Below are positions 16,293-26,168 of a stretch of DNA of 35,229 bases, piece by piece; position 1 is the stretch's first letter, and every line of letters starts with the position of its first letter. The stretch comes from Candidatus Omnitrophota bacterium. Its GTDB lineage: Bacteria > Omnitrophota > Gorgyraeia > 1-14-0-20-64-10. Under the pieces are notes generated by a model. That model did not search any database. It saw only the letters and a list, made by a program, of their open reading frames with translations, and was not told where the DNA came from. The translations under genes were made by a program, and so were the position numbers. Where the stretch lies: contig JACQCH010000027.1 in the NCBI GenBank assembly GCA_016201735.1, positions 1 to 35,229 of the forward strand. Reading direction: 5' to 3'.

Positions 16293-17149
16293 TGGCCGCG
16301 GCCAGCCTCCCGCTCCAGCTCTCCCAGCCGGACATCGATCATCAGGCGCAGCCAGAATCCTTGGAGGAAGTGGAACAATATTCCCTCAGGTCCATCCAGA
16401 ACTCCGAGGCGGAAGACGAAGCGGTAAATAAAATAGAGAAAGGGACGCACGTAAAGAGGCAGCCGATACCAAAGATTTTTCAACCAAAGAACCTGTTGGT
16501 CAGGGGTACCCCAAAGCAGAGGTTTTATTGTCCATGGAATCCGATGGTGTCGGCGATGGTGCTCTTCCTGTGCTTGGAGCTCGATGTAACGCAAATGTTT
16601 CTGCAGCCAAAAGGTAATTTGGTCTTCTTTCCGGTTCTGCTCTAGGATGGGGTATCTTAAACGCCGCGTTTCCCCATCGACATAGAATCGGAAATCCACC
16701 AACTCCTGTTCATCCGACCAGCCACAGCCTCGGCGGAACAACTTCAACAGATACTTCGGCCAGTACCCGCCGTGACGGATCCACTTCCCTCGGAAAATCT
16801 GCTTTCGGGGGAGATAATATCCTTTGATTTCCAGAGAGGATTTGGGCAGCGAAGAGAGGATCTCCTCCTTGAGTTCCGGCGTGACCCGTTGGTCTGCATC
16901 GAGCGCGAGGACCCACTCGCCCGTGATGGGAAGAGTTTTCAACGCCCAGTTCCATTGCTTGGCGTGGGTTTCAAAGGGATGTTGAATGACAGCGGCTCCA
17001 TGGGCCCTTGCGATGGGAAGCGTCCCATCGGAGCTGCCGGAGTCTACGATGAAGACTTCACGACACCACCCCTCTAAAGATTTTAAGCAATGGGGCAGGT
17101 TCAGTTCTTCATCGAGTGTTAGGATGATGGCGGTAATGGAAAGAGTCAT
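16289..17149 (-). CDS. Glycosyltransferase family 2 (WaaE/KdtX-like)
   Basis: A 286-residue GT-A fold enzyme. The N-terminus ITAIILTLDEELNLPHCLKSL and IVDSGSSDGT form the nucleotide-binding part, and WVLALDADQRV supplies the DXD motif. The following segments (KGYYLPRKQIFRGKWIRHGG and the EQELVDF-type block) are shared with WaaE/KdtX-like proteins, often beta-1,4-glucosyltransferases of lipopolysaccharide core. A hydrophobic stretch near residues 230-245 (YVRPFLYFIYRFVF) suggests membrane association. It overlaps the Wzy-like gene by four bases (ATGA). Confidence 0.86.
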   Translation of the reverse strand: MTLSITAIILTLDEELNLPHCLKSLEGWCREVFIVDSGSSDGTLPIARAHGAAVIQHPFETHAKQWNWALKTLPITGEWVLALDADQRVTPELKEEILSSLPKSSLEIKGYYLPRKQIFRGKWIRHGGYWPKYLLKLFRRGCGWSDEQELVDFRFYVDGETRRLRYPILEQNRKEDQITFWLQKHLRYIELQAQEEHHRRHHRIPWTIKPLLWGTPDQQVLWLKNLWYRLPLYVRPFLYFIYRFVFRLGVLDGPEGILFHFLQGFWLRLMIDVRLGELEREAGRGQ

Positions 17150-18600
17150 GACGGTTGAACCGATGGAAGGGTTTCCAAGGAACGCGGCTGAAGGAACCGG
17201 ATGAAGAAATACATGATGAGCAGATAGTACACCAGTCCTCCGAACGCGAGCGAAAAACTGTTCTCAATAATCAGCATATTTGAGAAGAGGGTGCACCCGA
17301 TGATGGTTCCACGTTCGCCAGCCTCTGGGTGCCCCAACAAAACTATGAGAGCCCGGTAAATCCAGCCGACAATTGCCATTCCAAGGATAACACCGAGGGA
17401 GCCGAAGTTGACGTACGGCTCAATGACTTGGTGCGGCAAGTTGAATGAAGTTGACTCATCTTCCAGATCCAGAAGATTATAGCGATGTCCAAAAGCCTGC
17501 CCAACAGTCTTCGTCGGTTTTCCCGGAAACAGGATTCGAGGAGCCAATGCCCAGAAGAGGTCGAAGTAGGTCTCTCCTTTCCAAAACGGAATCATCGTAG
17601 GCGTCATCTCCATAGTGATCATAAAGACACCCAAATGACCGATGCGGGATTTTGCGGATTCCATAGAGGCAGAATAGGCCTCACCTCTTCCTTCTCCCAT
17701 CTGTTTGGTTGCCAGCCCAACAAAAGCAAGTCCGCGTTGAATGGGCGAACTTGGGACATCAATATCCCCGCTTTCTCCATACCACGCAATCGACCGAAAT
17801 TCCTGCTTCACACTGCCGGCCAAAGGCAGAAGGCAAAGGATTCCGATCGCCAGCGCTTGCCAGGGGATCCTTCGTCGTTCCGCGGCGTAGCAAAACAGCA
17901 ATGGCGCCAGGGATCGAATGACTTCATAGATAAAACCCGTTCCCAAACTTATCAGGAATTCCAGAGGGATTGCCAGCCCCCAAATAAACAGTTTCAAGAT
18001 CAAAGATAATCGACCCCTCAACTGGAGAAGGAACAGAGTGACGATTCCTATCGTTGCTAGTTGAGAGACGATAGACAGGAATTGGGCGAGGGAAGGAGGG
18101 GGAGAAAAAACAAGGGTGTAATAGTGGGTTCCCAGTCCCACGGTCGTCAGAAGCATGCCTAAGAGTGGAGCTCGGTCTGGATCCCAGGGTGCTTTGATTC
18201 TTGGAACGACCCGTTCAACCCATCGGCCTAAGGGAGTATAGAAGGTGAGAAGGCATGTGCCTGCCCCTAATGCCGCAAGCCGCAAGGCATTAACCACGGC
18301 GGTCTCCGGGACAAGAAAATCCAACCCATTGAGGAAATCCTCACTGAGCATCGGCATTCCGAACATGACGAAATATACCAATCCCCACATGGGCATGAGG
18401 GGGATTCGGAAAGGGTGACCTCCAGCGAACAGAACGGTGGGGAGACTGCAGGAAATGTAGAGGAGGGTGAGCCAGAAAAACTCGCCGGCCGGCAGCCGGT
18501 GGAGGCTGACGGCCGATAAGGCGATCCAGGCGGCCGTCAGGAAGACGATGTATCCTAATGCGCGGCGGCCCCTTCCTTTTCCAGTTCCGATCTGCAGCAT
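17146..18600 (-). CDS. Multispanning membrane protein, probable Wzy-type O-antigen polymerase
   Basis: A 484-residue integral membrane protein with about eleven or twelve hydrophobic segments and one large loop (roughly residues 270-390) that should be periplasmic. The loop contains GESGDIDVPSSP, RGLAFVGLATKQ and FWALAPRILFPGKPTKTVGQAFGHR. The segment ending in PRILFPGKP and the GFIYEVIRSLAPLLFC helix resemble the oligosaccharide repeat polymerases of exopolysaccharide clusters. Such proteins join undecaprenyl-linked repeat units in the periplasm. The gene is 12 bases downstream of the Wzz/kinase fusion, its expected partner. A Wzx flippase is less likely: that family is usually near 420-500 residues but lacks one dominant periplasmic loop. 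The call rests on topology and context. Confidence 0.65.
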   Translation of the reverse strand: MLQIGTGKGRGRRALGYIVFLTAAWIALSAVSLHRLPAGEFFWLTLLYISCSLPTVLFAGGHPFRIPLMPMWGLVYFVMFGMPMLSEDFLNGLDFLVPETAVVNALRLAALGAGTCLLTFYTPLGRWVERVVPRIKAPWDPDRAPLLGMLLTTVGLGTHYYTLVFSPPPSLAQFLSIVSQLATIGIVTLFLLQLRGRLSLILKLFIWGLAIPLEFLISLGTGFIYEVIRSLAPLLFCYAAERRRIPWQALAIGILCLLPLAGSVKQEFRSIAWYGESGDIDVPSSPIQRGLAFVGLATKQMGEGRGEAYSASMESAKSRIGHLGVFMITMEMTPTMIPFWKGETYFDLFWALAPRILFPGKPTKTVGQAFGHRYNLLDLEDESTSFNLPHQVIEPYVNFGSLGVILGMAIVGWIYRALIVLLGHPEAGERGTIIGCTLFSNMLIIENSFSLAFGGLVYYLLIMYFFIRFLQPRSLETLPSVQPS

Positions 18601-18612
18601 TTCAGGATCTGC

Positions 18613-20457
18613 TTAGCGTCGGGCGCGTTTGCTTTCTCGGTCGCGATGGTAATAGTAGTAATACCGGTAGCCCCGCTCCAGTTCCAGCCGGGCCCCGTTC
18701 AAGATTCCCCCGATGATTCGGGCGCCGACGTCGATCAAGCGCTGCTTGCCGGCTAAGGCCACCTCCCCGTGCGTGCGGCCCGCCCGGAGCACGAAGATCA
18801 CCCCATCGGTGAGGGTCGCCAGAACAGAGGCATCCGCCGCCACCAGAACCGGGGAGGCATCGATCAGCAAATATTGATATTCCTTTTTCCAGCCCTCCAT
18901 AAGGGCCCGGAGCTTGGAACTGCTCAAGAGATCCGTTGGTTGAGGGGGAGACATCCCTGCGGAAACGATGGAAACTCCGTTCAAGAGAGGGGAGCTCTGC
19001 ACCAAATCCTCCAGGGCGGCCTTGTCCTGCAGGTACTCGCTTAAGCCCGGCTCCAGATTCAGATGCAGAAGCTTGTGAAGGTTCGGCCGGCGCAGATCCC
19101 CATCGATGATCAGCACCTTGCGGCCCAGTTCTTGAAACGCGGCGGCCAGGTTGACGCAGAGCATCGATTTCCCTTCCTCCGGCAGGGCGCTCGTGACGAG
19201 CAGGGCGTGGGGCTGGTCGGCTGGCAAAAGGAACTGCAGGGTGGTGCGAATGGACCGGATCGACTCGCCAATAGGGGAATGGTGGTCGGTGAGGCGGATA
19301 ACATCCGTCCCCGCGCCCATCCGGATGAGCGGGACGTGTCCTAAGAACGGGATCTCCATCAGGCGCTCGAAATCCCGCCGGGTCTGGAAGGTCTTGGTGA
19401 GTTTCTCCCGAAGGATGCTCAACCCCCCGCCTAAGCCCAAGCCCAGGAGAACAGCGATCAGGATGATTCTTATTCGGGGTGGGCCGATCGGTGCTTCCGG
19501 AACAAGGGCGTAGTCCACCACCTGGATGTTGTTGCTCCTCAGACCTTCCTGGACGGAAAGTTCCTTCAGGCGGGTCAACAGGACGTTGTAGATCTCTTCG
19601 CTGGTTTTGGACTCCCTTGAAAGACCCCCGTATTGGATGGAGAGACGGCTCGCCTCCAGGGCCTTCTGTTCCTGGTCGTAGAGAGCCAATTGGAGTTCCC
19701 GTTCCTTGGCTTGGAGTTCCAGGAGGGTCGGATGTTTCTCCCGGTATTTCGTCTCCGCCTCGATCCGGTCCTTCCGGGTCTGGGTGATCGCCGCGTTCAG
19801 GGCCTGGATCCGTTGGAGGATCGAATTTTGCTGCTCGGTTCCCATATCGACCGTGCCGTTCTGCTCCAGGAACGCCTGGAGGGCCAACTGGGCGGAGTGC
19901 ATTTTATCCTCCATCTTGGCCACCTCGTCCCGGAGCCACTGAATGCCTCCGGCCGTCGTCTCCTGGCGGCGTTCCATATTCATCCGGGCGTAACTCTCGG
20001 CCACCGCGTTGGCGATTCGGGCGACCAGTTCCGGTTTCAGGCCGGAGATCCGGATATCGACCATCGCGGTTCCCCGCACCGGCTCGACGAGGAGCATTTC
20101 CTGAAGGGCCTTGGCCGGATCCCGGGAAGAGGAGAAGGGAGGAAAGGCGGCCAAATGAAGTTCTTGGATAACCCGGGAGGAAACCGCCCGGCTTGCGATC
20201 ACCCGATACTCGGTCTGAAGGAATCCTTGAATCCAGCCGCCGGAAAGCGGGGCGACTTCCTGGAATCGAACCAGTTGAGGGGCCTGGGCCTGAAGGAGGA
20301 CCCGAGCCGAGGCCTGATAGATGTTGGGCTGCTGAATCATAAAGAGGGCGGTAAATCCTCCCAGAATCAGCGCGGTTAAGCCGATGAACCACCGATGGAG
20401 CCAGAGGGCTCTTAAATAGTCTTCCGGCTGCCACTCGACTTCTACTCGAGAAGCCAT
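18613..20457 (-). CDS. Wzc-like polysaccharide co-polymerase / BY-kinase fusion
   Basis: A 614-residue inner-membrane tyrosine autokinase that sets chain length and couples polymerisation to export. Order: a Wzz domain with first membrane helix (about 23-41), a long periplasmic coiled-coil region (about 165-300), second membrane helix (331-348), then the cytoplasmic kinase with Walker A SALPEEGKS (423-431), Walker A' VLIIDGDLRRP (448-458), Walker B LLIDAS (530-535), and a C-terminal tyrosine cluster (Tyr597 and Tyr599-603) followed by a basic tail. All BY-kinase motifs are intact. The start overlaps the sugar transferase stop by one base. Autophosphorylation of the Tyr cluster would cycle the oligomer, as in Wzc. 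Confidence 0.9.
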   Translation of the reverse strand: MASRVEVEWQPEDYLRALWLHRWFIGLTALILGGFTALFMIQQPNIYQASARVLLQAQAPQLVRFQEVAPLSGGWIQGFLQTEYRVIASRAVSSRVIQELHLAAFPPFSSSRDPAKALQEMLLVEPVRGTAMVDIRISGLKPELVARIANAVAESYARMNMERRQETTAGGIQWLRDEVAKMEDKMHSAQLALQAFLEQNGTVDMGTEQQNSILQRIQALNAAITQTRKDRIEAETKYREKHPTLLELQAKERELQLALYDQEQKALEASRLSIQYGGLSRESKTSEEIYNVLLTRLKELSVQEGLRSNNIQVVDYALVPEAPIGPPRIRIILIAVLLGLGLGGGLSILREKLTKTFQTRRDFERLMEIPFLGHVPLIRMGAGTDVIRLTDHHSPIGESIRSIRTTLQFLLPADQPHALLVTSALPEEGKSMLCVNLAAAFQELGRKVLIIDGDLRRPNLHKLLHLNLEPGLSEYLQDKAALEDLVQSSPLLNGVSIVSAGMSPPQPTDLLSSSKLRALMEGWKKEYQYLLIDASPVLVAADASVLATLTDGVIFVLRAGRTHGEVALAGKQRLIDVGARIIGGILNGARLELERGYRYYYYYHRDRESKRARR

Positions 20458-21011
20458 TATTTAGAATCCTTTCTTTCCCATCGGCTCCGGAGTGTCACCG
20501 CGAGTGATTGGAACAAGATCCAGAGATCCAATCGAAGGGAACAGCGCTTCACGTAAGCCAGGTCCCACTTGATCCGCTCCGCGAGCCCTGGGAATTTCCC
20601 GCCGTAGAGCTGGGCCAATCCGGCCAATCCGGGGCGCAGTAAGAAGCGGCGCTGACCGTTTGGAACCCGCCCCAATTTCTGAAGATCCTCCGGGATCAGG
20701 GGGCGCGGCCCCACAAAACTCATCTCTCCTTTGAGGATATGAATGAGCTGCGGCAGTTCATCCATGGCGGTTGCCCGCATCCAGCGGCAGAAGGGAGGGC
20801 TCTTCCCCTGGGCGGTCATCGTCCGAAACTTCAGAATTTGAAATTCTCTCCCCCGGATTCCGATCCGGATTTGTCGGAAGAATGGGGAGCATCTCAGCTC
20901 CCGATAAATTCCCCAAGCCATCCCAGCCATCGGGATCCCAAAGACCAGCAGTCCCGCGCCGGCCAGAAAAAAATCGAACAGGCGTTTCCCTCCCGATCGG
21001 CACCAGATCAC
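20457..21011 (-). CDS. Initiating sugar transferase (bacterial sugar-1-phosphate transferase family)
   Basis: A 184-residue phosphoglycosyltransferase of the short, monotopic type, as in EpsL or PglC. It places the first sugar phosphate on undecaprenyl phosphate. It has the N-terminal KRLFDFFLAGAGLLVFG re-entrant helix, FQILKFRTM, MDELPQLIHILKGEMSFVGPRP (DELPQL at 84-89, GPRP at 101-104) and the late RPGLAGLAQLYG block. In most members an Asp-Glu pair is catalytic; here it would be the one in MDELPQ. The start is a GTG at 21011 behind a G-rich ribosome binding site, eight bases after the TPR gene. It leads the core export module with the kinase gene. Confidence 0.9.
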   Translation of the reverse strand: MIWCRSGGKRLFDFFLAGAGLLVFGIPMAGMAWGIYRELRCSPFFRQIRIGIRGREFQILKFRTMTAQGKSPPFCRWMRATAMDELPQLIHILKGEMSFVGPRPLIPEDLQKLGRVPNGQRRFLLRPGLAGLAQLYGGKFPGLAERIKWDLAYVKRCSLRLDLWILFQSLAVTLRSRWERKDSK

Positions 21012-21019
21012 CCCACCCC

Positions 21020-22903
21020 CTATTTCTTTTCCACCAGCTCCACGGAGATATCCGCGTAGCCCTCCTTCAGTTCATATTTCTTAATCTTCAAAAGCTGCTG
21101 CTGTTGGCGGACCGATTGGTTAACCTTCTCCTCCAGGGCTCCGAGGAGTATCTTTGGAAGGGACAAATTCCCCACCTTCACTTCATGGATCAGAGCGTGA
21201 GGCCGCTCCTCCACGACCGTGATCCCGATCCGGGCTTCGACGGGAAACGTGAAAGGCCCTAAGTGGACCGTTCCGTACCCGACGAATCCATCCGGATGGA
21301 TTTTGGTGTCCACCTCCGTGATCTGCCCGGGGAATTTTGCTCGGACGCGGCGGACCACCAACTCTTTGAATTCCGCGTCGGTGTATTTCCGGGTCATCTC
21401 ATGCCGATTGGCCGATTTCATGTAGCCGGCCAGCCGTTCCTCGAACACCTCCACAAACAGGGGTAGGAATTTTTCCAGCCACCCCAGCAGGAGGGACCCT
21501 TTCTCCAAGGAGGGCTGAGAAGTTTCTTTGGGGAGGGCCGCTGCTGGCCGAGGAAGAACAGGCGTTGAGGGAAGAGCCAGAAGAGCGATGAAGATTCCCT
21601 TTTCCCGCTCGGCTTGATACAGCTTTTGCTCCATGTCGCTGAAAGGGCTGGCGGGGAAATGGCTCAGCAGTTCCTGGAAGTGAAGCTGGGCTTTCACCGG
21701 GTCGTTTAGATCGTAGCGGTAGACCGATCCGGCCTCCGTGTGGAGAACAGCGGCAAACGCGTCGTCCTGGCTCTCCCAGGAAATCCGATCGTAAAGGAGC
21801 CCGGCGGTCTGAAGATCCCCCGAGGCCCGATAGGTTTCGGCGACCTGATGCCGCGCCGCCCAGGCCCAGGGAGATTTCGGATCCCGGTGAATCACCTCCT
21901 GGAATCCGTTCAAGGCCTCTTCAAATTGTCCCAAGGTTTTCAAGCACCAGGCCTCCTTGAACAGGGCGGGCAGAGCCAAATCTCCATCCGGGACCGCCAA
22001 TCGGGCTTCGTGGAATGCCTTGGCCGCCTTGTCGATCGCATAGAGGCGGATCGAGACCAGCCCCAGTTCAAAGGCAACCTGTTGGCGTTCCGGCCCCCAT
22101 TTGATCGTCGAGAGGCGCTGCTCTAAAACCTTGGCCCTGCCGGTTTGTTTTCGGGCCTGAGTGAGATTCCCCAACATTTGGTGGGCGACCTGGGCCTCGT
22201 TCGGGTCCAGCGCTTGGGCCAACACCTGCCGGTACAGCCGTTCCGCCTCATCAAAGGCGCCGGTCCGCTGATGGAGATACCCGAGCCGCAGTCTCAAGCC
22301 GCTGCGGCCGACGTCATTCGGATAATCCTTCAGAAGCTTTTCATAAACCGTTACCGCCTCCTTGAACATCCCCAACCGTTCCGAACGGGCGGCCTTCGGA
22401 AGAAGAGGGTCGTTCGTCAATTGGGAAGAGCCCCCCGTGAAAATCCGCCGAGGGAAGAAAGTGATCCCCCGGGAAAACCCCTGTATTCCGGTGACAATCC
22501 CGTCCAGGGTCGTCAAAAAGCCGGACCGGGCCGAGGCTCGATCCTCCGTCAAGGATTCCATGATGAGCCGCGCATCTTCCACAGGACGTTGGAGCTGCCC
22601 CGATGCGAGGGTCCCTTGGGTGTACTGGAGGGAGGCCAGATCCTTGAGATGGATCTCCTCCTTCGCCATCTCCGCCACCAGGGTTTGATCCACGAGAAGC
22701 AGAACGGCCTCGGCCTGGCTTACCCCGACGGCTTTGTTCAAGGCCGACAGGGATGTTTTCAAGTTTTGAAGGTTGGTGTCGAGGATAAACCGGTTGTATC
22801 CGGCCAGGAACAGGCCGATCCCGATTAAGGCGATCGGGATCCGAAGCAGGAAAACCCAGCGCCCCAGAAATTGGATGAAGGGGCGGATCGCTTCACGCCG
22901 CAT
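21020..22903 (-). CDS. Membrane-anchored TPR protein with unassigned C-terminal domain
   Basis: A 627-residue protein not recognised as a named family. After a basic start it has one membrane helix (about 15-36), then a linker, then tetratricopeptide-like repeats from about 185 to 420 (for example EAVTVYEKLLKDYPND, EAERLYRQVLAQALDPN and EALNGFQEVIHRDPKS), a Pro-rich linker, and a C-terminal domain (469-627) clearly related to the whole mature protein encoded directly upstream. The C-terminal pattern, with FPVEARIGITVVEERP and EVKVGNLSLP, recalls YpmS/DUF2140-like or LmeA-like lipid-binding (TULIP-type) domains; that comparison is inference. One anchor and no signal cleavage suggest a periplasmic location. 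The start overlaps the upstream gene by 11 bases, and it lies just before the initiating transferase gene, so a scaffold role in polysaccharide assembly is likely. Confidence 0.65.
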   Translation of the reverse strand: MRREAIRPFIQFLGRWVFLLRIPIALIGIGLFLAGYNRFILDTNLQNLKTSLSALNKAVGVSQAEAVLLLVDQTLVAEMAKEEIHLKDLASLQYTQGTLASGQLQRPVEDARLIMESLTEDRASARSGFLTTLDGIVTGIQGFSRGITFFPRRIFTGGSSQLTNDPLLPKAARSERLGMFKEAVTVYEKLLKDYPNDVGRSGLRLRLGYLHQRTGAFDEAERLYRQVLAQALDPNEAQVAHQMLGNLTQARKQTGRAKVLEQRLSTIKWGPERQQVAFELGLVSIRLYAIDKAAKAFHEARLAVPDGDLALPALFKEAWCLKTLGQFEEALNGFQEVIHRDPKSPWAWAARHQVAETYRASGDLQTAGLLYDRISWESQDDAFAAVLHTEAGSVYRYDLNDPVKAQLHFQELLSHFPASPFSDMEQKLYQAEREKGIFIALLALPSTPVLPRPAAALPKETSQPSLEKGSLLLGWLEKFLPLFVEVFEERLAGYMKSANRHEMTRKYTDAEFKELVVRRVRAKFPGQITEVDTKIHPDGFVGYGTVHLGPFTFPVEARIGITVVEERPHALIHEVKVGNLSLPKILLGALEEKVNQSVRQQQQLLKIKKYELKEGYADISVELVEKK

Positions 22904-23498
22904 TATTCAGCTCCACCGAAAGAAGAGCCCAGCCCTCGCCTAAATTCACCGACTTGACTTTGAGAAGCAGCCGCAGCCGGTCGAGCTTCTCGTTGACGCG
23001 GGTTTCCAGCAGGCTTCGGACTTCGTCGGGAGCCGTTTGATTTCCGATTCGGACCTCCTGGAAGAACAGATGAATCCGGTCACTCACCACGGTCACCCCG
23101 GCTCGCACCTGGACCGGAATGGATCGGGACTCCAGGCGGGCCGTTCCTTTCCCGACCATGCCGTCCGGGTGGATCTTGACCGTGATGTCGTTCAGTTGTC
23201 CCGGCAGCATCTCCCGCACCCGCTGAACGACCATCTCTTCGAATTCCTGTTCGCTGTATTTCCGGGTGAGATGATCCTCGCCGACCGCCTCGATCAAGAG
23301 GGCCAGCCGTTCATCGAATACCTGCACGAAGACCGGCAGGAGATGTTCCAGGCGGGTCATCAAGGGGGATCCGGATTCGACGGAATAAGGATTGGAAGAG
23401 TAGGTGCTCTGGGGCGTGTCGGAATACAGCGTCTCCGCCTGAAGAGGAGCGGCCGCCATGATGAATCCTAAAACCAGGACCAGTCTCATCCATGTCAT
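22893..23498 (-). CDS. Secreted single-domain protein, paralogous to the TPR protein C-terminus
   Basis: A protein of about 200 residues with a signal peptide (LVLVLGFIMAAAPLQA|E). From about residue 43 to the end it aligns with the last 159 residues of the adjacent TPR protein, at roughly 45% identity by eye over the best 120 positions. Shared marks are an LPVFVQVFDERL-like helix, TRKY..EF..VV.RVR..PGQ, KIHPDG.VG.GT, an EV.(V/I)GN strand and an alternating beta end (LLKVKSVNLGEG). No known function. The first ATG (23498) lies inside the arm of a palindromic repeat; the next in-frame ATG is at 23489, and either could be used. Probably periplasmic and a partner of the TPR protein. Confidence 0.65.
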   Translation of the reverse strand: MTWMRLVLVLGFIMAAAPLQAETLYSDTPQSTYSSNPYSVESGSPLMTRLEHLLPVFVQVFDERLALLIEAVGEDHLTRKYSEQEFEEMVVQRVREMLPGQLNDITVKIHPDGMVGKGTARLESRSIPVQVRAGVTVVSDRIHLFFQEVRIGNQTAPDEVRSLLETRVNEKLDRLRLLLKVKSVNLGEGWALLSVELNNAA

Positions 23499-23570
23499 CT
23501 CGAGGAGCGGAGCGACGAGAGATCCCGTTTTTAAAGGCGAGATTTCTCGGCCTGGCGGCCTCGAAATGAC
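23494..23570 (-). repeat. Palindromic dispersed repeat (REP/MITE-like), 77 bp
   Basis: Imperfect terminal inverted repeats of 12 bases (23494-23505 and 23559-23570, 11 of 12 matching) enclose two smaller hairpins. It belongs to the widespread kind of intergenic repeat with ends reading GTCATTTCGAG or GTCATCTCGAG and inner GAGATTTCTCG. It fills almost all the 95-base gap between the Wza-like gene and the secreted-protein gene, and one arm contains the first ATG of the latter. Strand is arbitrary. Confidence 0.65.
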
Positions 23571-23593: not shown

Positions 23594-24784
23594 CTAAAAC
23601 AGCCGCCTCCGGACGTAGATCGTATCGTGGGGAAGGATCGCCACATTCGGTTCTTTCCCCACGATGACCCGATCCATATGGATTCGAATCGACATCTTTT
23701 TCTGCTGATCCCCTCGGATGATCTCCACATGGTTGGACCCGAACTTAGTGATTCCCCCCGCTTGGCTTAAGGCGGTTAAAAGATCCACCGGTCCTTCCAT
23801 CAGGTAGGCCCCGGGCCGTTCCACATCTCCGAGGACGGAGAACTTCGCGCCGTACAGCCGGACCGTCACCTGCATTGTTTCCGCCGGATTTCCCCGGACA
23901 TAGATGGTGTCCCGAGGAGACAGCATCATGTTGGGTTCTGTGCCTTTGAAGATCTGGTCCACGTGGGCTTGGATCGTCACCTTTTCTTTCCCGGAACCCC
24001 GGATGACCTCGACCTGGTTGGACCCGAACTTGGTCAATCCCCCCGCCTGGCTCAAGGCGGTCAGAAGATCCACCGTGCCGGCCATCTCGTACCAGCCGGG
24101 CCGCTCTACCTCTCCGAGCACCGAGAATTTCGCTCCGGAGAGCTGAACGGTCACCTGGGGGTTGACCAGGTAATCCTTGTCCAGCCGTTCCTGGACCTCC
24201 TTTTCTACCTCCTGCAGGGCCCGTCCTGCCCCCTGGATGCTTCCGACCAATGGAAATGAAAAGGTTCCGTCCTCCCGGATCAGGGCCTTTTTGTTTAGAT
24301 CCGGTTGATTCCAGACCGAGATGTCCAACTCATCTCCAACCCGCAAATGATACACCTCATTCGGAATCTCCCGGGTGGAGAGGACCCGCCCCGGAGCGGA
24401 AGGTTCCGTTGGGCTCTCCTGCTCCGGAGTCAATGGAACGGACTGGCTCAAACGTTCCTGGATCTGCTGTTCTACCTCCCGGAGGGAGCGGCCTTCTGCT
24501 TTTATCAGTCCCACGGGAGGGAACAGGAAGGTTCCATCCTCCCGGATCGGGATCCGTTTGTTGAGGTTTTCCCGGCCCCAGATGGAGATGTCCAGCTCGT
24601 CGCCGGAGCGCAGGTGATAGATCTCATTGGCCACCTCATTGGCCGAGAGGACCTGCCCCGAAGCAGAAACGGGAACATGACCGTGGGTGACCGCCTGAAT
24701 CGACGGCCCGCAGCCGGCCGCGATCAGCAGTCCGAAGCAGAGAACCGTAGGTGCCGGGGGGATGCCCCGAAGGGGAGGATCCAC
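23594..24784 (-). CDS. Wza-like polysaccharide export lipoprotein with duplicated domains
   Basis: A polysaccharide export protein with a lipobox (LLIAAGC) followed by four domains in the order A-A-B-B. Two polysaccharide-export segments (YHLRSGDELDIS… and YHLRVGDELDIS…) are 89 residues apart. Two SLBB-type beta-grasp domains (SGAKFSVLGEVERPG… and YGAKFSVLGDVERPG…) are 95 residues apart. A usual Wza has one export domain and one or two divergent SLBB domains. The copies of each pair are very similar, also at DNA level. The chosen GTG (24784) gives 396 residues and puts one Arg before the hydrophobic stretch; a GTG at 24883 lies inside the upstream gene and is disfavoured. No start codon exists between the palindromic repeat and the lipobox. 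It should form the outer-membrane or periplasmic channel working with the Wzc-like kinase. Confidence 0.82.
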   Translation of the reverse strand: MDPPLRGIPPAPTVLCFGLLIAAGCGPSIQAVTHGHVPVSASGQVLSANEVANEIYHLRSGDELDISIWGRENLNKRIPIREDGTFLFPPVGLIKAEGRSLREVEQQIQERLSQSVPLTPEQESPTEPSAPGRVLSTREIPNEVYHLRVGDELDISVWNQPDLNKKALIREDGTFSFPLVGSIQGAGRALQEVEKEVQERLDKDYLVNPQVTVQLSGAKFSVLGEVERPGWYEMAGTVDLLTALSQAGGLTKFGSNQVEVIRGSGKEKVTIQAHVDQIFKGTEPNMMLSPRDTIYVRGNPAETMQVTVRLYGAKFSVLGDVERPGAYLMEGPVDLLTALSQAGGITKFGSNHVEIIRGDQQKKMSIRIHMDRVIVGKEPNVAILPHDTIYVRRRLF

Positions 24785-24827
24785 ACCGGGCGGAGGGGCC
24801 CCGCAGGGGCGCCCCGCGGCACCTACG
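24746..24827. repeat. GC-rich palindromic element with perfect 11-bp terminal inverted repeats, 82 bp
   Basis: The left end (24746-24756, CGTAGGTGCCG) is the exact reverse complement of the right end (24817-24827). The interior is very GC-rich and holds CCCC-GAA-GGGG and GGGGCGCCCC hairpins. Size, ends and structure fit a MITE or REP-like element. It lies between the barrel gene stop (24834-24836) and the lipobox of the Wza-like gene, and the best start codon of that gene (GTG at 24784) lies inside it. Confidence 0.7.
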
Positions 24828-24833
24828 CAGCTC

Positions 24834-26168
24834 TCACAGTTCCGCTTCAAAGCCAAGAGCCCAAATTTGGTTAGTGTAGTCACTGGTTCTCGATCGGTTG
24901 AACTTATAGTCCAAAGTGACTTTCATCTGTTCCCGAACCTGCCACTCGATTCCGGCGGTGAGCCCGTACCGGCTGGCTTTAAGCTGGCTTCCGGATAACA
25001 CCTGGCCCCCTTTGGCTTGTTGGCGTTCGTAGTTGGCTCCCAGGTTTAGTTTGGTCCGGGGGCTCAGTTCATAGATCAGTTCGCCGGAAGGCCGGGTGCT
25101 GTGGAATTGGAGCCGGTCCGATGAGAAAGAGGGGACGTTTCCGTCGAAAAACCCCAGATTAAGGGTTGTCCGGGGACCCGGCTTGTATTTCCACTTTCCA
25201 TCGAAGGTGATGCTGGTGGGGGAAAACCCGTTTTTAAACTCCCGGCGTCCGAGCGTTAAAGTCGCCTCAAGCTCGGAAATCTCCGTCAGCGTATAGCGGG
25301 TCCCCAAACGCCCCCCCGATTCATGGGAATCCTTGGATCGGTTTTTTGGGATTGTCACGTCATTAAAGGAGAGTCCTGTGAAGACGAGCCAGCCGGGTCT
25401 CAAATCATGGTCCATATCCAAGGTCGCCAGCAGGTCTCTCCGATCGGTATCGGTGTCATTCGCGCTCCGATCATCGTAGATTTTGTATTGAATCGCCGGA
25501 ACGAGAGAGTTCGTGTTATTTAAGGCATAGGTGATTCGCCCGATCTCGATGTATTCCATCGAGGCCTGAACGCCCGCAGCGGCGCTTCGCCGCACGATGT
25601 CGACTCCTTCTTGGGATGCTCCAAAGACAAGACCGTGTGCCGTCCTCAAATGGGAATCGAGCCGGTAATGGAGACGAGTTTTTTGGTCCAGATCGGCGAA
25701 AACCCGGAGGTCGTGGTTGATCCAATTGACCCGAGTGTTGACGTAGTAGAAATCGTTTATCTCGTAGTCGATCCCGTACAAAAGAGCCCCTTTCGGATCG
25801 GCGAACAGGATCTCCGCTTCCGACTCACTAATCCAATCATCCTGCTTATTATTATCCTGGAGGAACAAGTTGTCGTTGTAAGTCTCCCGGTAGCCGATCC
25901 CCAACTGCGTCCGCTCCCGCAGGTAATCCAGCAACGTCCGGGACGCATCCGCCTCATGCGGGAGATCGTCGATCTCCACCGTCGGAATAGGAGACCGCTC
26001 CACTCCCCAGGCCTGCGAACTCCCCAAAAACAGGGAAATCAGACTTAAGGCAAGCGCGATAAGTTTTGCGGCATCGCCGTTCGTCCTGAGCTTGTCGAAG
26101 GACGAACGGCCGAGTCGTTCCCGTTCATGCTTCGACGGGCTCAGCATGAACGGCAGGCGCCGGGTCAC
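24834..26168 (-). CDS. Outer-membrane beta-barrel protein of an exopolysaccharide cluster
   Basis: A protein of up to 444 residues. After a hydrophobic signal core (KLIALALSLISLFLGSSQAWG) comes a mature part made of alternating polar/aromatic strands, many ending in turns with Asn, Asp or Gly (YRETYNDNLFLQ, GIDYEINDFYY, TRYTLTEISELEATLTLGRRE, KVTLDYKFNRS), and a C-terminal strand ending GFEAEL. This fits the putative beta-barrel porin family BBP2_2 found beside Wza-like genes. It would sit in the outer membrane and assist export or secretion of the polymer. A GTG at 26168 has a GGAGG six bases upstream and is the likely start, but it puts about 25 repeat-encoded residues before the signal core. 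Later in-frame ATG: 26147. Confidence 0.75.
   Translation of the reverse strand: MTRRLPFMLSPSKHERERLGRSSFDKLRTNGDAAKLIALALSLISLFLGSSQAWGVERSPIPTVEIDDLPHEADASRTLLDYLRERTQLGIGYRETYNDNLFLQDNNKQDDWISESEAEILFADPKGALLYGIDYEINDFYYVNTRVNWINHDLRVFADLDQKTRLHYRLDSHLRTAHGLVFGASQEGVDIVRRSAAAGVQASMEYIEIGRITYALNNTNSLVPAIQYKIYDDRSANDTDTDRRDLLATLDMDHDLRPGWLVFTGLSFNDVTIPKNRSKDSHESGGRLGTRYTLTEISELEATLTLGRREFKNGFSPTSITFDGKWKYKPGPRTTLNLGFFDGNVPSFSSDRLQFHSTRPSGELIYELSPRTKLNLGANYERQQAKGGQVLSGSQLKASRYGLTAGIEWQVREQMKVTLDYKFNRSRTSDYTNQIWALGFEAEL
26076..26154. repeat. Double-hairpin dispersed repeat inside the barrel gene 5' end, 79 bp
   Basis: Two perfect hairpins: arms 26076-26087/26099-26110 (12 bp) and 26121-26130/26144-26153 (10 bp), with loops of 11 and 13 bases. 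The sequence type, ending in GTTCGTCCTGAGC…, is a well-known repeat in many bacterial genomes; when translated it yields peptides with LSPSKHE or FDKLRTNG, both seen here. It is in frame with the beta-barrel gene. Confidence 0.75.

Follow-up and report, generated by a model that had tools for sequence, protein, structure and literature searches.

A TULIP-like domain found twice, once behind a TPR scaffold, in a Wza/Wzc-type locus of Omnitrophota

In synthase-dependent polysaccharide export, AlgK, PgaA and BcsC provide the periplasmic TPR parts. The short-OPX/beta-barrel systems EpsY/EpsX and WzaX pair an OPX protein that lacks Wza_C with an outer-membrane (OM) barrel, and the same papers give TPR parts for synthase-dependent systems only (PMC9601211, PMC9603273). 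The TULIPs form a further point of reference. They commonly act as head-to-head pairs, and the bacterial members follow a fixed order of elements: strand -1, the core, and strands +1 and +2 (Levine 2019, PMC6791001). In the LmeA family (PF11209, DUF2993) the TULIP makes up the C-terminal half, and DUF2140 has been reported from monoderms only (Levine 2019, PMC6791001). In mycobacteria, LmeA itself, a phospholipid-binding TULIP protein, serves to maintain the synthesis of lipomannan (PMC7643837).

Gene run and domain copies in the window

The window (the whole stretch of 35,229 nucleotides that was analysed) contains a tightly packed run of genes on the minus strand, in the order barrel, Wza, secreted domain copy, TPR protein (the scaffold), sugar transferase, Wzz-Wzc kinase and Wzy-like polymerase (Table 1). 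It has the make-up of a short-OPX (class 3)/beta-barrel locus: the Poly_export-SLBB protein, in which a family search found no Wza_C domain, lies beside the gene of an OM barrel. An identical arrangement of these two genes is seen in L050, L052, L055 and L058. The Wzc-like protein carries a Walker motif and a Tyr-rich tail. The preliminary description had placed both domain-bearing genes directly next to the sugar transferase and the kinase. The identities of these neighbours stand (PF02397, TIGR01007) and the TPR protein does adjoin the sugar transferase; the secreted copy, however, sits between Wza and the TPR protein.

Two peculiarities of the upstream genes can be added. The Wza/OPX gene contains an internal duplication that shows up as two direct repeats, one of 161 nt (80%) and the other of 91 nt (73%). 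The listed start of the barrel gene yields a leader (FMLSPSKHE...SFDKLRTNG) resembling read-through of another repeat, and the true start probably lies further in.

Table 1. Features of the locus, by position in the window
Feature	Position	Strand	Basis
Wzy-like polymerase	17146..18600	(-)	NF046084 E 2e-12, below cut-off
Wzz chain-length determinant + BY-kinase fusion (Wzc-like)	18613..20457	(-)	TIGR01007 above cut-off
Small phosphoglycosyl transferase (initiating sugar transferase)	20457..21011	(-)	PF02397 E 1e-42
Scaffold gene (627 aa)	21020..22903	(-)	Pfam TPR families + full-length AF2 model
TULIP-like domain, scaffold copy (residues 469-627)	21023..21499	(-)	BLASTP, model, fold search
TPR repeats of scaffold (about residues 174-430)	21614..22384	(-)	Pfam + AF2
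Predicted single membrane anchor of scaffold (about residues 14-37)	22793..22864	(-)	sequence
Secreted TULIP-like protein (201 aa)	22893..23498	(-)	signal peptide ending ...APLQA
TULIP-like domain, secreted copy	22908..23372	(-)	BLASTP + genome search
76-bp interspersed repeat, between Wza and secreted copy, covering the latter's first ATG	23495..23570	(-)	
Wza/OPX protein, Poly_export and SLBB each twice	23594..24883	(-)	Pfam
OM beta-barrel, TIGR03016/EpsL type; may partner the short OPX protein	24834..26168	(-)	

The paired-domain feature is real and well bounded. In BLASTP, the secreted protein and the TPR protein share 75 identical residues out of 164 (46%, with 66% positives and a single gap; E 2e-46), a resemblance that, judged from the alignment, lies far beyond chance. 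The identity of about 45% previously read by eye is thereby borne out; the KIHPDG-VG-GT stretch reported to be common to both copies is present in the alignment, and the reading frames given for the two proteins were likewise confirmed. Exactly two copies of the domain were found in the source genome (1.8 Mb, 95% complete). The end of the secreted gene and the start of the TPR gene overlap by 11 bases, so that stop and start codons interlock. For the secreted protein, the first ATG (23498) falls within the 76-bp repeat (CGTCATTTCGAGG...CTCGAGATGAC, about 28 matches genome-wide), and M4 at 23489 is therefore the more likely start. A lipobox Cys is absent from the predicted signal peptide region.

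From the N- to the C-terminus, the scaffold consists of the membrane anchor, a TPR superhelix, a linker and the TULIP-like domain (Pfam + AF2). The full-length model accordingly displays TPR helices, a low-confidence linker (435-469) and a C-terminal alpha/beta domain; the matches listed in its fold search are solely of the TPR type. Anchor and signal peptide point to a periplasmic location of the scaffold and the secreted copy, respectively, and since the N-terminus of the scaffold is positive, the remainder beyond the anchor is probably periplasmic.

Relation of the domain to TULIP proteins

Neither window copy matches a Pfam or NCBIfam family, in keeping with the earlier statement that no named function was recognised, and direct searches gave nothing usable in PHROGs or among PDB sequences. 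Profile scans with PF11209 and PF09911 found no match in the source genome. The family members were also scanned singly. In this case, a TPR-fused relative from a sister family (L055/L009; genome G009) matched LmeA (PF11209) positions 90-216 of 217 with E 1.4e-5 and 25.7 bits, which is below the curated cut-off of 27.3, the N-terminal half being unmatched. When 25 whole genomes were scanned with the LmeA profile, the TULIP-like domain was the best match (E 1.3e-5). The link to LmeA thus comes from one relative that does not reach the cut-off of the family, and the window copies themselves have no match to it. We conclude that the domain is TULIP-like, yet outside LmeA proper. With PF09911 (DUF2140/YpmS), one distant stand-alone relative (G371) gave E 0.51. 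A tighter domain profile of six rows, run over genome contigs, has matches in Omnitrophota only, and a search of plasmids returned no match.

The AlphaFold2 (AF2) model of the scaffold copy was built from a 7-sequence alignment and has a mean pLDDT of 86.9 and a pTM of 0.75. It is composed of two helices, a strand, a helix, a four-strand meander, a helix and two strands, and so contains the TULIP succession of strand, helix, curved meander, helix and two more strands. The strands are amphipathic. A fold search of the PDB places only TULIPs at the top: two BPI entries (E 2.6e-4 for 1ewf, prob 0.98, and E 3.2e-4), CETP (E 1.6e-3, prob 0.99) and LBP (E 2.3e-3, prob 0.80). The superposition is poor (TM 0.26-0.37, rmsd about 15 A), and because of these low TM-scores the fold matches are by themselves no more than suggestive. 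The solved bacterial TULIP YceB (3L6I) is absent among the top 50 matches, and viral proteins gave no fold match at E 0.001. The likeness to YpmS/LmeA-type domains proposed in the preliminary description is supported by the sub-threshold LmeA match at the correct positions, by TULIPs as best PDB folds and by the element order of bacterial TULIPs.

Scaffolds and free copies across Omnitrophota

A profile of the N-terminal part of the scaffold (membrane anchor and next helices) finds it in 57 of 384 Omnitrophota genomes (about 15%), and the YNxFxxD motif at the end of the anchor is conserved phylum-wide. The surroundings were scanned using profiles of five kinds, namely Wza, Wzz, Wzc kinase, sugar transferase and OM barrel. 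Wza, Wzz or Wzc lies within 8 kb on the same strand in 43 of 61 scaffold loci; many of the remaining 18 are on contigs that end nearby. The chance rate of Wzc proximity would be roughly 2%, an estimate from one to three Wzc loci per 1.7-Mb genome. Distant families usually have the genes arranged as scaffold, barrel, Wza, Wzz-Wzc, and family f1 keeps a fixed order of barrel, Wza, scaffold, sugar transferase, Wzz-Wzc.

The C-terminal end of the scaffold is swappable: most scaffolds have extra TPRs there and the others the TULIP-like domain. Since most scaffolds of the phylum carry extra TPRs instead, the domain is dispensable for export in general. The TULIP-like end occurs in nine families (f1, f2, f4, f7, f9, f17, f30, f42 and f57), of which the f4 and f57 cases (L046, L045) were found via this end, their N-terminus being unmatched by the scaffold profile. 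For the domain-bearing scaffolds in these nine families, Wza, Wzz or Wzc is nearby in 15 of 18 loci (14 of 17 retrieved, plus the window). The neighbourhood comparison suggested earlier thus turned out in favour of the TPR-fused form being regularly associated with Wza/Wzc. In a tree built from 51 scaffolds, the domain label requires 4 changes versus about 14 when shuffled (none of 500 shuffles was as low), and the domain-bearing end may have had a single origin.

Double domains recur. Four scaffolds of 887-917 aa (L143, L150, L153, L158) contain two TULIP-like domains in tandem. Their first and second halves match each other in hhalign (probability 95.6%, E 1e-8), and the domain family profile matches the first at 94% and the second at 75%. 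Beyond the tandem domains, the same four have another similar C-terminal stretch. Genome G371 holds two adjacent membrane-anchored single-domain genes (L048:4433-5912), the second being the one that weakly touches DUF2140; no Wza/Wzc gene is present on this 12-kb contig. The secreted neighbour of the window is a different matter. Among the six family f1 loci with a visible Wza-scaffold junction it occurs in one, namely that of the window genome. The adjacent pair was therefore rejected as a conserved unit; what is conserved is the fusion. Support in the domain tree is too poor to date the duplication.

Besides that of the window, stand-alone copies amount to seven genes in six places. One (L056:740-6003, a second polysaccharide-type locus of G009) is a secreted copy that also has a short stretch of TPRs; it adjoins a second Wzz-Wzc gene, after which comes a protein carrying cNMP-binding, ParA-like and patatin domains. 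The others (in G004, G008, G254, G371 and G422) have no Wza/Wzc in the stretch examined. The G004 copy (L051:4233-10407) begins 3 bases past FabI at the end of a PlsX-FabH-FabD-FabF-FabI run, with SMC next, a setting that fits a lipid-related role. With L056 alone against 14 of 17 fused cases plus the window, the bare domain is untied from polysaccharide genes and the fused form tied to them. Stand-alone copies are thus mostly found outside polysaccharide loci.

A possible lipid-handling scaffold and its nearest parallels

Taken jointly, these observations are probably best explained by a periplasmic scaffold of a short-OPX/beta-barrel exporter that bears a TULIP-like lipid-binding module. The TPR protein would be an inner-membrane-anchored periplasmic scaffold of a Wzz-Wzc-type assembly and export complex common in Omnitrophota, whose C-terminus, in the lineage of the window, would be a TULIP-like tube. 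A duplicate of the tube would be produced in free, secreted form by a gene of the same run as the scaffold. The scaffold would position its tube between the polymerase/co-polymerase and the OPX/barrel. At this site the tube would bind the lipid portion of an intermediate, i.e. an undecaprenyl-phosphate-linked glycan or a phospholipid. Lipid binding is suggested by the fold and by weak LmeA homology, and a role with lipid-linked glycan by gene context. The recurrent double domains suggest that the copies may pair; because TULIPs commonly work head to head, the secreted copy may form the second half of such a pair. The mechanism as a whole is plausible. What the analysis shows directly is the homology, the domain architecture, the surrounding genes and the structure model together with its fold matches. 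We know of no soluble carrier for the step of Wzx/Wzy assembly in which undecaprenyl-linked polymer or freed lipid would be taken up. A distinct Omnitrophota export complex that combines the OPX/Wzc machine, OM barrel and periplasmic TPR scaffold, with one or two lipid-binding tubes performing this uptake in several lineages, can be put forward tentatively, and we consider it somewhat doubtful.

The low TM-scores would also suit another alpha/beta fold, such as a helix-grip, Bet v 1-like one, that resembles TULIPs by chance, and Bet v 1-like proteins are indeed the next best in the fold search (from E about 0.05). The Bet v 1 fold ends in a long C-terminal helix, unlike the model with its final helix and two strands, and the independent LmeA sequence match spans the right half; a non-TULIP fold is very unlikely.

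If the fold is of TULIP descent, its task may still be another one. It is unlikely that the domain has lost lipid binding and serves as a docking or cap module fixing the scaffold to OPX, barrel or Wzz, even though most scaffolds of the phylum hold TPRs (binding modules) at the same position in similar loci and, in synthase-dependent export, periplasmic TPR proteins help the polymer to cross the periplasm (PMC9601211). Several strands retain a hydrophobic face, and the recurrent scaffold-free copies, one in a fatty-acid-synthesis run, suggest an activity of the domain itself. The same free copies, all but L056 lying outside Wza/Wzc loci and that of G004 directly after PlsX/Fab genes, would agree with a general envelope lipid chaperone, acting on phospholipid or on a lipid A precursor, which is co-regulated with polysaccharide assembly and no part of it. 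This appears quite unlikely, given the proximity of the fused form to Wza/Wzz/Wzc across nine families and its fixed place between Wza and sugar transferase in family f1.

Should the preferred reading of a lipid-binding module on an export scaffold hold, it would provide a concrete candidate for the poorly understood handling of lipid on the periplasmic side of Wzx/Wzy-type assembly. TPR scaffolds would then belong to OPX/Wzc loci phylum-wide as well as to synthase-dependent export, and a TULIP-like subfamily without Pfam model, fused to other domains and with recurrent double copies, would be added. A literature search, with subscription journals mostly outside its reach, found no paper linking a TULIP to Wza/Wzc loci.

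The scaffold resembles AlgK, PgaA and BcsC in having a TPR superhelix that is predicted to lie between the inner membrane and a barrel in the outer membrane. It is set apart by an N-terminal transmembrane anchor, by the TULIP-like end and by a Wzx/Wzy-type locus that includes OPX and Wzc. The EpsY/EpsX and WzaX systems resemble the locus in their OPX protein without Wza_C beside an OM barrel and a Wzz-Wzc co-polymerase; the Omnitrophota loci add the membrane-anchored periplasmic TPR scaffold. Among bacterial TULIPs, DUF2140 (YpmS), DUF4403 and YceB have the element order in common with the domain, and the pseudodimeric DUF4403 also the recurring tube pairs (PMC6791001), although the window copies differ in being without a Pfam match. 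Unlike the domain in Wza/Wzc loci, LmeA is not fused to a TPR scaffold; it has an N-terminal half that is missing here, and its match, to a single relative, is below the cut-off. It is periplasmic, as is predicted for the domain, matches in its TULIP half and works next to the polymerisation of a polysaccharide on a lipid anchor (PMC7643837), a setting suggested here by the genes. LmeA with its lipid-anchored mannan polymer would thus be the nearest functional parallel.
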